Shown piece after piece: positions 25,172 to 42,165 of a stretch of DNA of 62,910 nt. A program made the translations under genes and the position numbers. The notes beneath the pieces were generated by a model that was given only the letters and a program-made list of their open reading frames with translations, searched no databases and was not told the origin of the DNA. How positions within the stretch are numbered: position 1 is the first letter of the stretch; every line of letters starts with the position of its first letter. This DNA is from CAYFZR01 sp046760505 [NCBI: Candidatus Hydrothermarchaeota archaeon]. Lineage in GTDB: Archaea; CAYFZR01. Where the stretch lies: the NCBI GenBank assembly GCA_046760505.1, contig JBHIEG010000012.1:1-62910 (forward strand), read 5' to 3'.

Positions 25172-26478
25172 TGTTTGATCTAGCTGAAAGAGCGGTTGAT
25201 CTAACGATTAAAGAAGGAGCATCATATGCGGAAGCATACATATCTAGATCCAAGAAAATTGAGGTGAAAATCGAAAAAGATGAGATATCTTTATCCAAAG
25301 AAAAAATTTCTAAAGGCATTGGAATCAGAGCAATAACAAAAAATAGAGTGGGATTTGCCTATACCACCGATTTTGAAAAAATTGAGGATGCTTGCAGGAT
25401 TGCTTACAAATCATCTACAAAAACAAGACCTGACCCAGATTTTAAAAAATTACCTGGTCCTGAGGCACCTTCAAAAATAAAAGGCACCTACGATAAAAGA
25501 TTAAGAGACTTAGAAGTTGAAGAGTGCATAGATTTTTCACTAAAAATGCTTGAAGGATGTAAAATCAATCCAAATATCTCATTAACCAGCGGAACAGCCA
25601 CATTTGCCTTAGATGAGTTTGCTATCGTGAATTCTGAGGGAATAAACTGTGGAGAGAAGGGCACATTTACCTCCGCATATATAACATGCTCTTACATAAG
25701 AGAGCCAGTAACAGGAGACGAATACAAGGCGAGCAGGTTTCTGGATATCGAGTACGAAGATGTAGGGAATCGGTGTGGAAGACTTGTTTTGGATTCTTTG
25801 AATCCAAGAAAGGTGGAAAGTGGAGTGTACAATGTTGTACTGAGTCCGTTTGCCGTGGAAGATATATTTTCATTTACTCTGATACCTAGTTTGAATTCTG
25901 AGGCTGTTTATAGGAAAAGATCAAGATTGAGGGGAAAAATCAATGAAGAGATTGCAGTAAAAGAACTAAATATTATGGATGACGGAACTTTGGCAAAGGG
26001 TCTTAATACAAGTTCAATCGATTCTGAAGGACTACCTACAAAATCTACGGAGATAATCAAAAAAGGAGTTTTGAGGTCTTATTTTTATGATAGTTATAAT
26101 GCGTATCGAGATGGTGTAGAAAGTACAGGAAATTCTGTTCGCGATTCATTTAGATCTGTGCCCGGAGTCGGACCTACAAATTTCTTGATTGAGGAAGGAA
26201 AATCCGAGCCAATCGAAGAATTGAAAGAAGGACTCTTAATAAAAGGAATCATCGGAGCCCACACTTCTAATCCAATCACTTGCGATTTCTCTCTGGAAAC
26301 CAAGAACGCATTTTATATAAAAGATGGGTCAATAGAATACCCAGTAAAGCATGCTATGCTGGTCGGAAATGCACTGGACATACTGAAGAATATAATATCA
26401 ATAGGCAAAGATTCTGAACAGGTTGGTTCAGTATTTTCTCCAAGTATACTTGTTGAGAAAATGAGGGTAGTTGCATGA
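25171..26478 (+). CDS. tldE: TldE/PmbA-type peptidase partner
   Basis: A 435-residue TldE/PmbA homologue with the family fold but without the HExxxH zinc motif. It forms the non-catalytic half of the TldD/TldE protease in other organisms. Seen: EKISKGIGIRAITKNRVGFAYTT near the N-terminus and GNSVRDSFRSVPGVGPTNF near 310. The ATG at 25171 overlaps the tldD stop (TGATG), so the subunits are translated together. The C-terminus overlaps the start of the radical SAM gene by 4 bp. Confidence 0.92.
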   Translation: MFDLAERAVDLTIKEGASYAEAYISRSKKIEVKIEKDEISLSKEKISKGIGIRAITKNRVGFAYTTDFEKIEDACRIAYKSSTKTRPDPDFKKLPGPEAPSKIKGTYDKRLRDLEVEECIDFSLKMLEGCKINPNISLTSGTATFALDEFAIVNSEGINCGEKGTFTSAYITCSYIREPVTGDEYKASRFLDIEYEDVGNRCGRLVLDSLNPRKVESGVYNVVLSPFAVEDIFSFTLIPSLNSEAVYRKRSRLRGKINEEIAVKELNIMDDGTLAKGLNTSSIDSEGLPTKSTEIIKKGVLRSYFYDSYNAYRDGVESTGNSVRDSFRSVPGVGPTNFLIEEGKSEPIEELKEGLLIKGIIGAHTSNPITCDFSLETKNAFYIKDGSIEYPVKHAMLVGNALDILKNIISIGKDSEQVGSVFSPSILVEKMRVVA

Positions 26479-27527
26479 GGTGGTTTAGGCCGGATTCAAA
26501 TTTGGTACTTAGGGATCCTATTGTAAAGAACTCATTAAAAAGATACTTCGCTGTTATGAATGACGAACAGGAGAGTTATTTTATCCGATCAAAGTATGTC
26601 ACGGTAGATGTTGACCTCTCTGATGATTTAGATGCTCTCTTAAAAGAACACGATAAAAAAGTGAATGAGGTCAAGAAGGTTTCAGGTGAAGAGATACCTA
26701 AAATTTCTCTCTTAGATCTAAAAATTGAAATTGCGAGAAGAATACTGCATGAATGTGAATTCTGCGAAAGAAAATGCAAGAAAAATAGATACGAAAAGAA
26801 AGGCTTCTGTAAGGTTGGAGTCAAACCGATTGTCTCGTCAATATTTGACCACTGGGGAGAAGAGCCAGAGTTGGTTCCAAGTGGAACTGTTTTTTTCTGT
26901 GGGTGCACCTTCTTCTGTGTTTACTGCCAGAACTGGACAATTGCCAGGATAAAAGAAGGAGGTAGAAGTATAAACGCAGAAGACCTTGCTCTCCGATTAG
27001 AGCAGATGAGATCTCAGGGTATAAGGAACGTCAATTGGGTTGGAGGAGATCCTACACCTCATTTACACTATATTTTGGAAACTATGCATCACTTGGACGT
27101 AAACATACCGTCTGTTTGGAATTCGAACATGTACCTTAGCCAATTAGGTATGAATCTGTTGAACGGCGTGGTGGATGTTTACTTAACTGATTTCAAGTAC
27201 GGTAACAATGAGTGCGCAAGGAGGCTTTCAAAGGTTAAAAACTACTGGGAAATCATAACAAGGAACCACCTGATTGCTAGCGAACAATGCGAACTAATCA
27301 TAAGGCATCTTGTTCTACCGAACCATGTAGAATGCTGTACATATCCGATTTTGGATTGGATAAGCAAAAATCTCAGAAAAGATGTTAGACTGAACATAAT
27401 GCCCCAGTACAGACCGGAGTTCATCGCTTACAAGTACGATGAATTGGTTAGAAGAGTCACAGGAGAAGAAATGAGAAGAGCCAAGGAAAGAGCAATAGAA
27501 CTTGGATTGAACAACCTAGTCAGATAG
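26475..27527 (+). CDS. Radical SAM protein (PflA-like, COG1313 type)
   Basis: A 350-residue radical SAM enzyme. The cluster motif is C144-x3-C148-x2-C151 (CTFFCVYC). Before it lies an extra Cys region, CEFCERKCKKNRYEKKGFCKVG (about 93-114), that could hold a second cluster or zinc. GGDPTPHLHYILE, NSNMYLSQ and VDVYLTDFKYG are typical of PflA-like proteins of the COG1313 group. The substrate is unknown. It overlaps tldE by ATGA, so it is in one transcript with lonB-tldD-tldE or tldD-tldE. No candidate precursor peptide is visible nearby. Confidence 0.88.
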   Translation: MRWFRPDSNLVLRDPIVKNSLKRYFAVMNDEQESYFIRSKYVTVDVDLSDDLDALLKEHDKKVNEVKKVSGEEIPKISLLDLKIEIARRILHECEFCERKCKKNRYEKKGFCKVGVKPIVSSIFDHWGEEPELVPSGTVFFCGCTFFCVYCQNWTIARIKEGGRSINAEDLALRLEQMRSQGIRNVNWVGGDPTPHLHYILETMHHLDVNIPSVWNSNMYLSQLGMNLLNGVVDVYLTDFKYGNNECARRLSKVKNYWEIITRNHLIASEQCELIIRHLVLPNHVECCTYPILDWISKNLRKDVRLNIMPQYRPEFIAYKYDELVRRVTGEEMRRAKERAIELGLNNLVR

Positions 27528-39604: not shown

Positions 39605-39650
39605 GATGTCATTGTTTTTTTCTTACATTAAATTTTTATGCTGGGTAAAG

Positions 39651-39684
39651 GTTAAATACATGTAAATTACATGTAAAAAACATG
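39651..39684 (+). promoter_or_regulatory. Promoter and operator-like triple ACATG array before the DUF5591 gene
   Basis: A TATA-like gttaaataca (39651-39660) lies about 27 bp before ATG 39682. Overlapping it is a perfect 19-bp palindrome (39657-39675) made of two TACATGTA boxes. ACATG begins at 39658, 39669 and 39680, exactly 11 bp apart, the third copy including the start codon. Three in-phase half-sites over TATA box and start site are what a ribbon-helix-helix repressor would use. Confidence 0.6.
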
Positions 39685-40401
39685 AAATACATTCAGGCAG
39701 TACTCTCGGACGAGGAATACGAAGAATTTGTTTATATGGCCAAGAATTTAGGCTTAAATATAAAGGATGCGGTAAAAGAATCCATAAAAGCATGGATAGA
39801 GCAGAGAGGAAAGGTTTTCATAAGAGGAGTTGGAGAGGAAGTATTCTCTCATCCAGCATTTGAAGAATGGCACGAATTTTTTATCAAGGAATACAAACCT
39901 CCCGCAAGGAAAATTCTTCTATTTCACAACTGCACATGGGGGAAGCCATACCATGAAGCTTGGATATTCAGAGAAATGGAAAAATCAGTATACGAGGTTC
40001 TTGATCCAAATGAGGTTCATTTCGTTGTTTTAAGTTCAGCAGGTGTAATACCAAGAGAATATTGGGATTACTGGCCTTTTTGCTCGTATGATTCAGATCC
40101 CTGGCAGTTCACCCCCGAGGACCGTAAGGCCTTCATAAGAATAAACTCAAAAAGAGTGGAGAACTACCTTTCAAAGCATTCTGAGAGTTACAAATGCATG
40201 GTAGCATACTTCCCTCTAGGAGACTGTGCAAGAGAAAGCGTAAGAATAGGTCTGGAAAGGTCGAGATGTAAACTCCCTTTTTACGAGGTTCCTGATATCC
40301 ATCCATTCGAAGATAGAAGGGACGAAGATTATTACGCTTGTCTTGCATCAGAAGAGGCCTTGCTACAACTAAAGAACATTTTGAGGAAATTAAATGATTG
40401 A
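39682..40401 (+). CDS. RHH-like N-terminus fused to a DUF5591 (ArcS-like) domain
   Basis: A 239-residue protein. Residues 1-45 (beta strand KYIQAVLSDEEYEEF, then two helices) look like a ribbon-helix-helix DNA-binding unit. Residues about 55-235 match DUF5591, the domain with the active site of archaeosine synthase ArcS: HPAFEEWHEFFIKEYKPP, LLFHNCTWGKPYHEAW, VVLSSAGVIPREYWDYWPF. The ArcS motif PC-x3-KPY-x2-S-x2-H reads NC-TWG-KPY-HE-A-WI-F, so Cys84, Lys88 and Tyr90 are kept while Pro, Ser and His are lost. It overlaps the queuosine-precursor transporter gene by 8 bp. A 7-deazaguanine sensor or salvage role is inferred. Confidence 0.75.
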   Translation: MKYIQAVLSDEEYEEFVYMAKNLGLNIKDAVKESIKAWIEQRGKVFIRGVGEEVFSHPAFEEWHEFFIKEYKPPARKILLFHNCTWGKPYHEAWIFREMEKSVYEVLDPNEVHFVVLSSAGVIPREYWDYWPFCSYDSDPWQFTPEDRKAFIRINSKRVENYLSKHSESYKCMVAYFPLGDCARESVRIGLERSRCKLPFYEVPDIHPFEDRRDEDYYACLASEEALLQLKNILRKLND

Positions 40402-41086
40402 GAATCTGATTTCATGGATACTTTTAACCTTGGGAGTTGTAGCCATATCAGCCATCTTTGCTGAAATTTACGGTGTAGAGATAGCCATAGGGGTTTTTGC
40501 AGCCCTAACCGTTATAGCAAATGTATTGGCCTTTAAGATAGTAAATTTTGCAATTTTTTCCGTTCCTTCAGCAGTAATAATCTATGCCTCAACGTTTCTC
40601 ATGACAGATATAGTGGGAGAAAGATTTGGGAAAAAATACGCGAGAAATGCTGTATGGTCAGGATTTATTGCCAATTTAATATACGTTTTAGCGGCTACAA
40701 TAGCAGTAAAATGGGAGCCTGCTCCTTTTATGTCGGCCGATAGCGTTTTAGCCTTTGACAAAGTTTTAGGATTTGCTCCAAGAGTTGTTTTTGCTTCTAT
40801 GGTTGCATACTTAATAAGCCAGCATCATGATGTTTTTGCATTTCACTGGTGGAAGGAGAAAACGAAGGGAAAGCACCTGTGGCTTAGAAATAACGCATCT
40901 ACCATGGTTTCTCAAGCAATAGATACAACAATTTTTATTACCCTTGCATTCTATGGCTCCATGCCCTTGTTACCCATGATAATTGGACAATATACGGTAA
41001 AGGTTCTCATAGCAATGATAGATACGCCATTCATTTATGCCGTCAATTTTCTCGCTGATTATGCGGTAAGGAGTGCAAAAGTATAA
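40394..41086 (+). CDS. Queuosine-precursor transporter (YhhQ/VUT family)
   Basis: A 230-residue integral membrane protein with about six spans. VUT-family signals: LTVIANVLAFKIVNF, ASTFLMTDIVGERFGKKYAR, AYLISQHHDVFAFHWWKEKT and NNASTMVSQAIDTTIFI. Bacterial YhhQ imports preQ0 or preQ1. Archaea normally use preQ0 for archaeosine (tRNA position 15). The start is inside the last codons of the DUF5591 gene, so the two are translated together. No other preQ0 or archaeosine gene is in the window. Confidence 0.9.
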   Translation: MIENLISWILLTLGVVAISAIFAEIYGVEIAIGVFAALTVIANVLAFKIVNFAIFSVPSAVIIYASTFLMTDIVGERFGKKYARNAVWSGFIANLIYVLAATIAVKWEPAPFMSADSVLAFDKVLGFAPRVVFASMVAYLISQHHDVFAFHWWKEKTKGKHLWLRNNASTMVSQAIDTTIFITLAFYGSMPLLPMIIGQYTVKVLIAMIDTPFIYAVNFLADYAVRSAKV

Positions 41087-41424
41087 AGGACTTGAGATTT
41101 TAACTTATACTCCTGAAATTAATTTATGCTCCCTGAAATCTTTCGAAAGTCTTCTTTCTCATGAAAGGTTCTCTCAATATGTTCAATATATTTGGCCAGA
41201 GTTCTTTGTTTTTATGTTTAACTCTCCTCACCCTATATAAACCGTATTTTCTCCTTCTAAACAAATCTTCACCCAAACAAAATTAATTTTGGAACTATTA
41301 TTTAATTATTTCCTTTAATATCTGATTTTTTATGACGTGCGTCTGACAGAATTGGCTAATTAAAAAAATTAAAGTTTTGAAATCTTGCAAAAGATTTTTG
41401 TTAGGAGAACGATTTATTTTTTAC
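41087..41424. other. Spacer of about 340 bp, mostly without clear genes
   Basis: AT-rich sequence between the transporter and the next plus-strand gene. It holds one possible minus-strand small ORF (41124-41264, listed separately). I see no RNA gene or mobile-element end. Confidence 0.4.
41124..41264 (-). CDS. Possible 46-residue basic protein
   Basis: TTG 41264 with GGGTGA about 4 bases upstream opens a 46-codon frame rich in Arg and Lys, with ELWPNILNILREPF in the middle and TFERFQGA at the end. The composition is protein-like, but no family is recognised. It could be a small gene or the end of a decayed one. Confidence 0.3.
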   Translation of the reverse strand: MFRRRKYGLYRVRRVKHKNKELWPNILNILREPFMRKKTFERFQGA

Positions 41425-42165
41425 ATGGAAGTGAATGTACTTTCACCGGATGAAAGGAAAGTGTTAAAAAAAATATTGTTGTTGAGGCGCATTGAAGAGT
41501 ACCTGACAAAGAATTTTCCAGATCTTGCATTGGACGAGAAAAAAGAGAAAGTTATGGAACTTTTTCTTTCTATAGAGGCACTATATCCTGAACTTGAGAT
41601 TCAACTAAGTTGTGAGTCGTCTTTAGATCTCCATAGATCATATGTGCAGCTTGAAATGTATTCTAGGATATACACTGACATGATAAGTCCTGCGGACGAA
41701 AAAACGGTTGAATCCCTGTTGAAAAAGATTAAAGAATACACATGCCTGCCAGAGTTTAAAGATCTTGGAGATATCATAAAAAACTTAGACAAGATCTCAG
41801 GCAGGGAAGTAGTTGTGGAAGAAAAGGAAATAAAGGTTCCTGTGAAAGAGGAGATTTTCCTACTTCCGGAAACTAAAAAGAGCTTGGAAGAATTTTTTCA
41901 TAATGAAATCATAAGAAAGGAGTTCTTATTAGAAATTGACCCTAAAATCAAAATTACTTTAAGCAAAATAATTGAGGAATACCTTGACAGATTCATAGAG
42001 GTTAGTGAAGAAGCCGCAATAAAATCAATTGAATATGGGCATCTTCAAGGTACAAATAAGGCTTACAACAAGCACATCGAGGAAAAGGTAAGGTCAAGCA
42101 TAAGCTGGTTGGTTAGGAACGATATAATAATTGAAGAAATTCTAGAAAGATTAAATAAAAAATAA
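41425..42165 (+). CDS. Hypothetical helical protein
   Basis: A 246-residue protein from ATG 41425, not recognised. Mostly helical and charged, with LDLHRSYVQLEMYSRIYTDMIS in the first half, an acidic/basic linker (VVVEEKEIKVPVKEEI) and a C-terminal helical domain. No membrane span and few Cys. The frame extends upstream to 41377 without a better start. Its 3' end is 11 bp from the convergent gap gene. Confidence 0.65.
   Translation: MEVNVLSPDERKVLKKILLLRRIEEYLTKNFPDLALDEKKEKVMELFLSIEALYPELEIQLSCESSLDLHRSYVQLEMYSRIYTDMISPADEKTVESLLKKIKEYTCLPEFKDLGDIIKNLDKISGREVVVEEKEIKVPVKEEIFLLPETKKSLEEFFHNEIIRKEFLLEIDPKIKITLSKIIEEYLDRFIEVSEEAAIKSIEYGHLQGTNKAYNKHIEEKVRSSISWLVRNDIIIEEILERLNKK

Follow-up and report, generated by a model that had tools for sequence, protein, structure and literature searches.

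An archaeal ribbon-helix-helix protein with an archaeosine synthase-like core beside a queuosine-precursor transporter: a candidate 7-deazaguanine sensing unit

Transporters of COG1738 occur in archaea, and an archaeal preQ0 salvage pathway has been called likely (PMC5372724). In the stretch of 62,910 bp analyzed here (the window), a gene was found that would be a ready test case for the sensing and salvage of 7-deazaguanines in archaea: its product joins a ribbon-helix-helix (RHH) head to DUF5591, the core domain of archaeosine synthase (ArcS), and a queuosine-precursor transporter is encoded directly after it (Table 1). What does such a protein do: sense a precursor, or process it?

The preliminary description of this DNA had reported a 239-residue protein with an RHH-like head and a DUF5591 domain, whose gene overlaps the transporter gene by 8 bp. 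Both statements are borne out: PF17884 is over its cut-off, the head is kin to RHH proteins, and the overlap lies at 40394-40401. That description began at 39651, before the open reading frame, and includes the upstream palindromes. The neighbors of the gene are a metallophosphoesterase gene and the Vut_1 transporter gene, and no toxin or PIN gene adjoins it. The next open reading frame after the transporter, at a gap of about 290 bp, encodes 262 residues (41377-42165, forward strand, TTG start) and matches no Pfam or NCBIfam family at cut-off. A chance fusion of reading frames, or a misread start, is rejected: after residue 1, the next in-frame ATG, GTG or TTG codons are at residues 19 and 99, residue 19 falls inside helix A, and separate relatives were found for the RHH half. 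Because no such codon occurs between residues 19 and 99, the DUF5591 domain is without a separate start. No tRNAs, and no Rfam families at gathering scores, were found in the window, and a riboswitch in the leader was rejected on the latter ground.

Table 1. Features of the RHH-DUF5591 locus (positions in the window)
Feature	Position	Strand	Basis or remark
A/T-rich AAATTTTTAT, possible archaeal TATA box	39630..39639	+	read off the sequence; tentative
Operator-like palindrome 1, TACATGTA	39657..39664	.	two copies only in 62,910 bp
Operator-like palindrome 2, TACATGTA (TTACATGTAA at 39667-39676)	39668..39675	.	11 bp from the first; 6 bp to the ATG
Degenerate third copy, AACATGAA	39679..39686	.	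covers the ATG, in phase (11 bp) with the two others; differs from the double site at 2 positions
RHH-DUF5591 gene, 239 aa	39682..40401	+	ATG start
RHH domain, residues 1-45, antitoxin (VapB)-like	39682..39816	+	kinship to RHH proteins encoded before PIN/VapC; two-helix models
DUF5591 (ArcS core) domain, residues 46-239	39817..40398	+	profile, fold, alignment; stop codon 40399-40401
QPTR/Vut_1 queuosine-precursor transporter, 230 aa	40394..41086	+	ATG start; TIGR00697, PF02592; overlaps the first gene by 8 bp

The body of the protein belongs to DUF5591 by profile and by modeled fold. Residues 62-176 match PF17884 with an E value of 1.2e-8 (35.3 bits against a cut-off of 26), and no other Pfam domain is over its cut-off. 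The comparison with known structures that had been proposed earlier supports this fold, since the sole PDB match at E <=0.001 is AF0587 (2q07; E 7.6e-5, Z 13.5, rmsd 2.9, 138 residues aligned); further folds (cutinases, UdgX, SMUG1) reach Z of only about 7-8, which is too low to tell kinship from common arrangement. The nearest relatives are stand-alone DUF5591 proteins of about 235 residues from the phylum of genome G001, with 26-33% identity (26-31% for four of them). These genomes, reached from a Bathyarchaeota sequence (L001), are presumably Thermoproteota by GTDB placement.

In a tree of 76 rows, the window protein and 32 stand-alone DUF5591 proteins lie on one side of a branch with support 88/94 (not starred), and the branch of the window protein is lone and long (1.81). 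This tree omitted three viral rows and L104 for their long branches, L250 and L251 as partial, and rows shorter than 110 residues, and it limited TgtA-type rows to 8 and ArcS rows to 14. When most of the omitted rows were restored (89 rows, no starred set), the window protein fell into a fork with the long branch of phage nt-1, with support 90. In the trees, the archaeosine tRNA-guanine transglycosylases (arcTGT) form a group of their own, apart from the window protein and the Cys-bearing stand-alone set. Since the window protein is a lone long branch, its changes may be due to drift or to a new activity. No close relatives of the fusion were found in the genome contigs or viral contigs searched, nor were relatives of the phage nt-1 DUF5591 protein or of the transporter found in those viral contigs. 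Of other proteins encoded in the window, ValS reaches about 52% in long matches from the class of G001, and GAPDH has the 1cf2 chain as its nearest match.

In Sulfolobus virus STSV1 (L081, 4202-5543), a stand-alone DUF5591 gene overlaps an annotated queuine tRNA-ribosyltransferase gene, perhaps as a viral 7-deazaguanine module. In Synechococcus phage Ssp-JY38 (L083, 4644-5633) and in L254 (2992-3984), DUF5591 follows an N-terminus that by eye resembles HAD phosphatases (IGVDLDGTLA and IGIDIDGTLA); DUF5591 is the sole match in the Pfam scan of L083.

The catalytic motif of the window protein is altered. Its signature reads NC-TWG-KPY-HE-A-WI-F, or NC-x3-KPY-x2-A-x2-F against PC-x3-KPY-x2-S-x2-H in ArcS. 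This string was given exactly in the preliminary description, which called the signature partly lost; the claim has to be narrowed, as proline and histidine also vary in Cys-bearing relatives and only S93A is special. In such relatives, P83 is replaced by L or I in viruses and H96 by W in radical-SAM fusions and phage nt-1, so a change at these positions alone says little. Among 15 diverse DUF5591 proteins, the window protein keeps all invariant columns (C84, P89, Y90, P124, P132 and Y136) and also K88 and E126, and it alone is missing S93. Across 119 distinct domains, Ser93 is present in 34/34 long proteins with C84, where the window protein has alanine; the rows without it are the window protein, eight long proteins with Q or E for C84, and one gap. 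Moreover, P83, C84, K88, P89, Y90, S93 and H96 occur in 32/32 distinct sequences of the stand-alone group, against A93 and F96 in the window. The window protein keeps 26 of the 45 positions invariant in these 32 sequences, whereas among the members themselves none keeps less than 95.9% of the positions invariant in the other 31; as the window protein stands outside the group, part of this difference may be due to divergence alone. By these alignments, the loss special to the window is that of S93 to A. From the sequence, ArcS-type catalysis has probably been lost and the 7-deazaguanine pocket may remain; since C84, K88 and E126 are kept together with P89, Y90, P124, P132 and Y136, catalysis may also persist.

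It had been argued earlier that this protein is not simply an ArcS, and the models agree. NF040592 and NF053620 give 28 bits against 440 and 24.3 against 600, below both equivalog cut-offs, and the signature departs from that of ArcS at S93A and H96F, so that simple ArcS activity is rejected as far as profiles and motif can tell. For comparison, the ArcS-like protein L134, which has C84, scores 399.6 bits against the cut-off of 440. ArcS of T. kodakarensis is inactive in lysine transfer without RaSEA; it does not use the free preQ0 base, uses the nucleoside slowly, and uses the 5′-monophosphate well (PMC11298593). Searches of the window for a RaSEA-like gene found none: stand-alone radical-SAM queries gave a best E value of 0.33, and the radical-SAM half of one of the fusions described below gave 0.002 over 75 residues of ORF 997-2175 (a DNA polymerase IV, judged by eye), with the rest at least 0.05. 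ORF 26475-27527 is by eye a radical-SAM protein of another kind than RaSEA-like. No TGT-like gene was found among the scanned neighbors of the pair.

The transporter is well assigned by profile, and the queuosine-precursor transporter proposed earlier as the partner is thus confirmed at the family level. It scores 173 bits against the TIGR00697 cut-off of 50.95 (“queuosine precursor transporter”) and matches PF02592 (Vut_1) with E 1.1e-53; it falls short of the narrower model PRK11212 (45.3 against 252). A sensor-type VUPS protein was rejected, with 182 bits for Vut_1 and 18.7 for VUPS (cut-off 27).

The operons of the relatives tell what company DUF5591 usually keeps. The related loci number 34, one per genome (L147-L150, L222-L251; 32 genomes with E <1e-70, plus G014 and G026). 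In 30/34, including L244, the DUF5591 gene has a RaSEA-like radical-SAM gene no more than 1.3 kb away, and a Vut_1 gene lies within the stretch examined in 14/34, in 13 of those within 0.9 kb; several contigs end near the gene, so both counts are lower bounds, and they are uncorrected for kinship between the genomes. The order is often Vut - radical SAM - DUF5591, and the window transporter is 35-52% identical to the 14 transporters. The earlier suggestion to look for the pair in other archaea is therefore answered in part: DUF5591 with Vut_1 recurs, and the RHH head was not seen there. Three of the radical-SAM proteins match the RaSEA model TIGR01210 with E values of 2.2e-14 to 8.7e-12, and one radical-SAM-DUF5591 fusion with 2.9e-30, all below cut-off.

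Fusions of this kind, of about 430-470 residues, occur in the phylum of G001 (L089, L093 and L095 were scanned; L090 and L091 are alike). In the phylum of G003, 15/16 matching open frames have 417-464 residues, and the radical-SAM half is present in 9/10 loci examined (L264-L269, L271-L273), the tenth being cut by a contig end. Four of the matches in this phylum begin at query residues 8-20, and two of these, L271 and L272, carry the radical-SAM half there and not an RHH domain.

Among 229 genomes of the class of G067, Vut_1 is found in 25/32 genomes with this DUF5591 against 38/197 without it (Fisher P 1.2e-10, uncorrected for kinship). QueF is found in 0/39 genomes with the DUF5591 group or the fusions and in 14/229 overall (hypergeometric P 0.067, uncorrected for kinship), which weakly suggests that the two exclude each other, as expected. 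The context of RaSEA-like and Vut_1 genes, together with the fusions, ties the stand-alone group to archaeosine-type chemistry and precursor import. The Vut_1 - RaSEA-like - DUF5591 operons are candidate compact archaeosine synthases, without TGT/PUA parts and coupled to precursor import. ArcS is said to be missing from most Crenarchaea (PMC11298593 and PMC5485725).

Some of these operons have a regulator gene beside them. In L150 (6616-6930), a separate RHH-like gene precedes and overlaps the transporter gene; its product scores 27.0 bits for DUF6364 against a cut-off of 27.3, and toward the C-terminus it matches zinc ribbons weakly, below threshold. The DUF5591 gene of L148 overlaps with an HTH gene. 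These are the only two such cases seen, the small neighbors of 17 other loci having been read by eye, and they indicate that regulators can join such operons.

The origin of the head is best seen from its relatives. Residues 1-50 fall below the cut-off of Pfam RHH_1 (E 0.19), and the head relative L263 is over it (22.1 against 20.5). When 398 genomes from the phylum of G001 were searched with residues 1-47, 7 of them yielded a total of 9 matches (E <=0.01), none within a DUF5591-bearing protein. The best of them (E 4.5e-7) aligns residues 2-43 with a small protein encoded before a PIN gene. L274 (the same gene as L107) and L276 directly precede a gene with a Pfam PIN match, and L281 and L282 precede what is by eye a PIN-like open frame or fragment. 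L277 has a clearly similar head within a 227-residue frame, and L278 has an RHH-like head with no PIN neighbor; by eye, L275 and L279 seem unrelated, and the ninth match, L280, is ambiguous.

In addition, relatives of the head are encoded on haloarchaeal plasmids (19 records at E <=1e-3). Six of the nine examined adjoin genes annotated as VapC or PIN; of the rest, L255 and L257 have other annotated neighbors and L260 is without annotation. L160 and L161 are followed by an open frame of 165 residues, which in the one tested has no Pfam match. No gaps are needed to align the head with L107 and the haloarchaeal proteins (KYIQAVLSDEEYEEF against TYVQTELSDEEYRHF), and in a haloarchaeal VapB-type head TYVQTELSDEEY stands opposite KYIQAVLSDEEY. 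On its sequence, the head is kin to VapB-type RHH antitoxins. The antitoxin of a VapB toxin-antitoxin pair would have a toxin gene adjoining, which this locus lacks.

Structure models agree with this assignment in part. A model of the whole protein (4 aligned rows, pLDDT 73.8, pTM 0.74, N-terminus of low confidence) and one of residues 1-50 alone have helices at 10-22 and 27-42 (or 27-49); at 4-7, the place of the strand in an RHH fold, they show a short helix. Both are of monomers, and the RHH strand forms only in the dimer. The fold of residues 1-45, which the preliminary description proposed to check, is therefore modeled as to its two RHH-type helices and not as to the strand, and the RHH kinship comes from sequence. 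A Foldseek search with the model of residues 1-50 gave a best E value of 0.76, which is not significant; about 15 of the first 20 rows bear names such as VapB, CopG, ORF56 and NikR, which we take to be RHH proteins. The residues through which the CopG strand contacts DNA would presumably correspond to Y3, Q5 and V7, which are not strongly polar. PDB sequence matches of residues 1-50, with E values down to 1.5e-5, were set aside, as they are designed helical repeat proteins whose single repeats score about 4 bits.

If the head binds DNA, a binding site may lie close at hand. The two copies of TACATGTA are the window's only identical 8-bp palindromes spaced 8-30 bp apart. In 100 order-1 Markov sequences as long as the window, such pairs number 0.38 on average and 2 at most, so that the telling point is not the pair as such but its placement directly before the gene. 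If up to 3 mismatches are allowed, the pattern of the double site matches at 4 places in the window, 3 of them at the array, whereas 100 shuffles average 0.20 matches. Counting against an operator is the total of 23 CATG-centered 8-bp palindromes in the window.

Sites with CATG recur upstream of the head's relatives. They are found at -23, -12 and -1 before the window gene, at -23, -13 and -1 before L281, at -19, -13 and -1 before L263, and at -57, -38 and -20 before L160 and L161. In the group L255-L262, seven have two CATG sites about 20 bp apart and L261 has one; those of L256, L259 and L260 are not 6-bp palindromes. CATG is absent from the 60 bp before L274 (= L107), L276 and L282. This recurrence fits binding by this RHH lineage, which makes these candidate sites, and the sites within each haloarchaeal group may be common by descent.

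Taken together, these features suggest that the transporter is controlled by a one-component RHH repressor whose ligand-binding domain derives from ArcS and is probably inactive, a reading that we hold to be about evenly balanced between right and wrong. The head, from a VapB-type antitoxin, would bind the tandem CATG-centered palindromes over its own start, and the bound protein would repress the two-gene operon. The body would derive from a stand-alone archaeosine-synthase core that has probably lost catalysis and kept its pocket, and it would bind a 7-deazaguanine, either preQ0 or its nucleoside or nucleotide. Through such binding, transporter synthesis would follow precursor supply. The repressor reading accounts for the head, the array, the body, the neighboring gene and the altered motif together.

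The preliminary description had offered a sensor or a salvage enzyme. In the latter, which is the main rival to the repressor, DUF5591 would still act on a 7-deazaguanine brought in from outside, by nitrile chemistry using C84, and the head would add autoregulation only; PutA-like enzymes likewise double as repressors. The residues retained around C84 and KPY and at P124, E126, P132 and Y136 speak for this, as does the DUF5591 protein of phage nt-1, which has L for P83 and W for H96 and sits among preQ0 genes. The DNA of Vibrio phage nt-1 contains dPreQ0, dADG and dG+ (PMC6884629), so that P83 and H96 may not be essential. S93, however, is present in every other long C84 protein compared, 30/34 relatives have a RaSEA-like gene nearby and none was found in the window, and the T. 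kodakarensis enzyme depends on RaSEA and refuses the preQ0 base (PMC11298593). The sensor has thus gained by the tandem palindromes and the loss of S93 and H96, the salvage half of the proposal has lost ground because no RaSEA-like gene was found in the window and because of what the T. kodakarensis enzyme requires, and we consider a salvage enzyme rather unlikely.

A lower probability is given to a non-catalytic nucleic-acid binding subunit, in which RHH would be a dimerizer, DUF5591 an arcTGT-like accessory, and the adjacent transporter a sign of pathway membership only. The string KPYHEAWIF does resemble KPYHKAHIF of an arcTGT (L163), and 4/4 Gln84 proteins (L163, L164, L173 and L175) are over the TgtA (arcTGT) cut-off; however, in the trees the domain falls with the stand-alone proteins that bear Cys and not with arcTGT, and the start carries palindromes that suit an operator, which makes such a subunit improbable. 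DUF5591 proteins of viruses, where encoded next to TGT/DpdA-like genes, may work on DNA, as the neighbors in STSV1 (the annotated queuine tRNA-ribosyltransferase) and in nt-1 (preQ0 genes) suggest, and the RHH head could in the same way bring an ArcS-like core to DNA as a 7-deazaguanine modification factor. With no TGT-like gene among the scanned neighbors, an altered catalytic string, and an operator-like array at the gene's own start, this is very improbable indeed.

If the repressor reading holds, the protein would be the first protein sensor of 7-deazaguanines, in which an antitoxin RHH and a dead archaeosine-synthase core read preQ0 (or its nucleotide) and control import in archaea; we propose this tentatively, with somewhat less than even confidence. 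No protein regulator of queuosine or preQ0 was among the literature matches listed (titles and abstract starts), DUF5591 is not mentioned by name in the literature searched, and papers joining ribbon-helix-helix with archaeosine concern other subjects, judging from their listings. No protein with the head and DUF5591 in one match was among the matches listed from 200 genomes, nor among those listed from a further search of 194 genomes. It had been stated earlier that no described RHH-DUF5591 fusion is known, and no second one appeared in the literature searched or in the genomes sampled, which may not cover the phylum of the window. As far as these searches reach, the parts belong to known kinds and their combination is new.

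The known systems nearest to this protein each share one part of it. The alpha subunit ArcS has the DUF5591 core with Cys84 and KPY, whereas the window protein has only 239 residues, S93A and H96F, and no RaSEA-like gene found in the window. The stand-alone DUF5591 operons of Thermoproteota, with RaSEA-like and Vut_1 genes, have the closest sequences and the same transporter family, but they show no RHH head, keep the full motif, and have the radical-SAM gene in 30/34. VapB-type antitoxins beside VapC/PIN share the RHH head; here, no PIN gene adjoins, and DUF5591 would replace the toxin-binding tail. The DUF5591-like domain of arcTGT (TgtA) has a KPYHxAxIF-type string without Ser/His in some members, but also Gln for Cys84 and a TGT domain. 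NrtR and PutA are regulators with an enzyme-derived sensor domain, of other folds and with other ligands. MocR likewise combines a DNA-binding head with an enzyme-derived domain, also with other folds and ligands.
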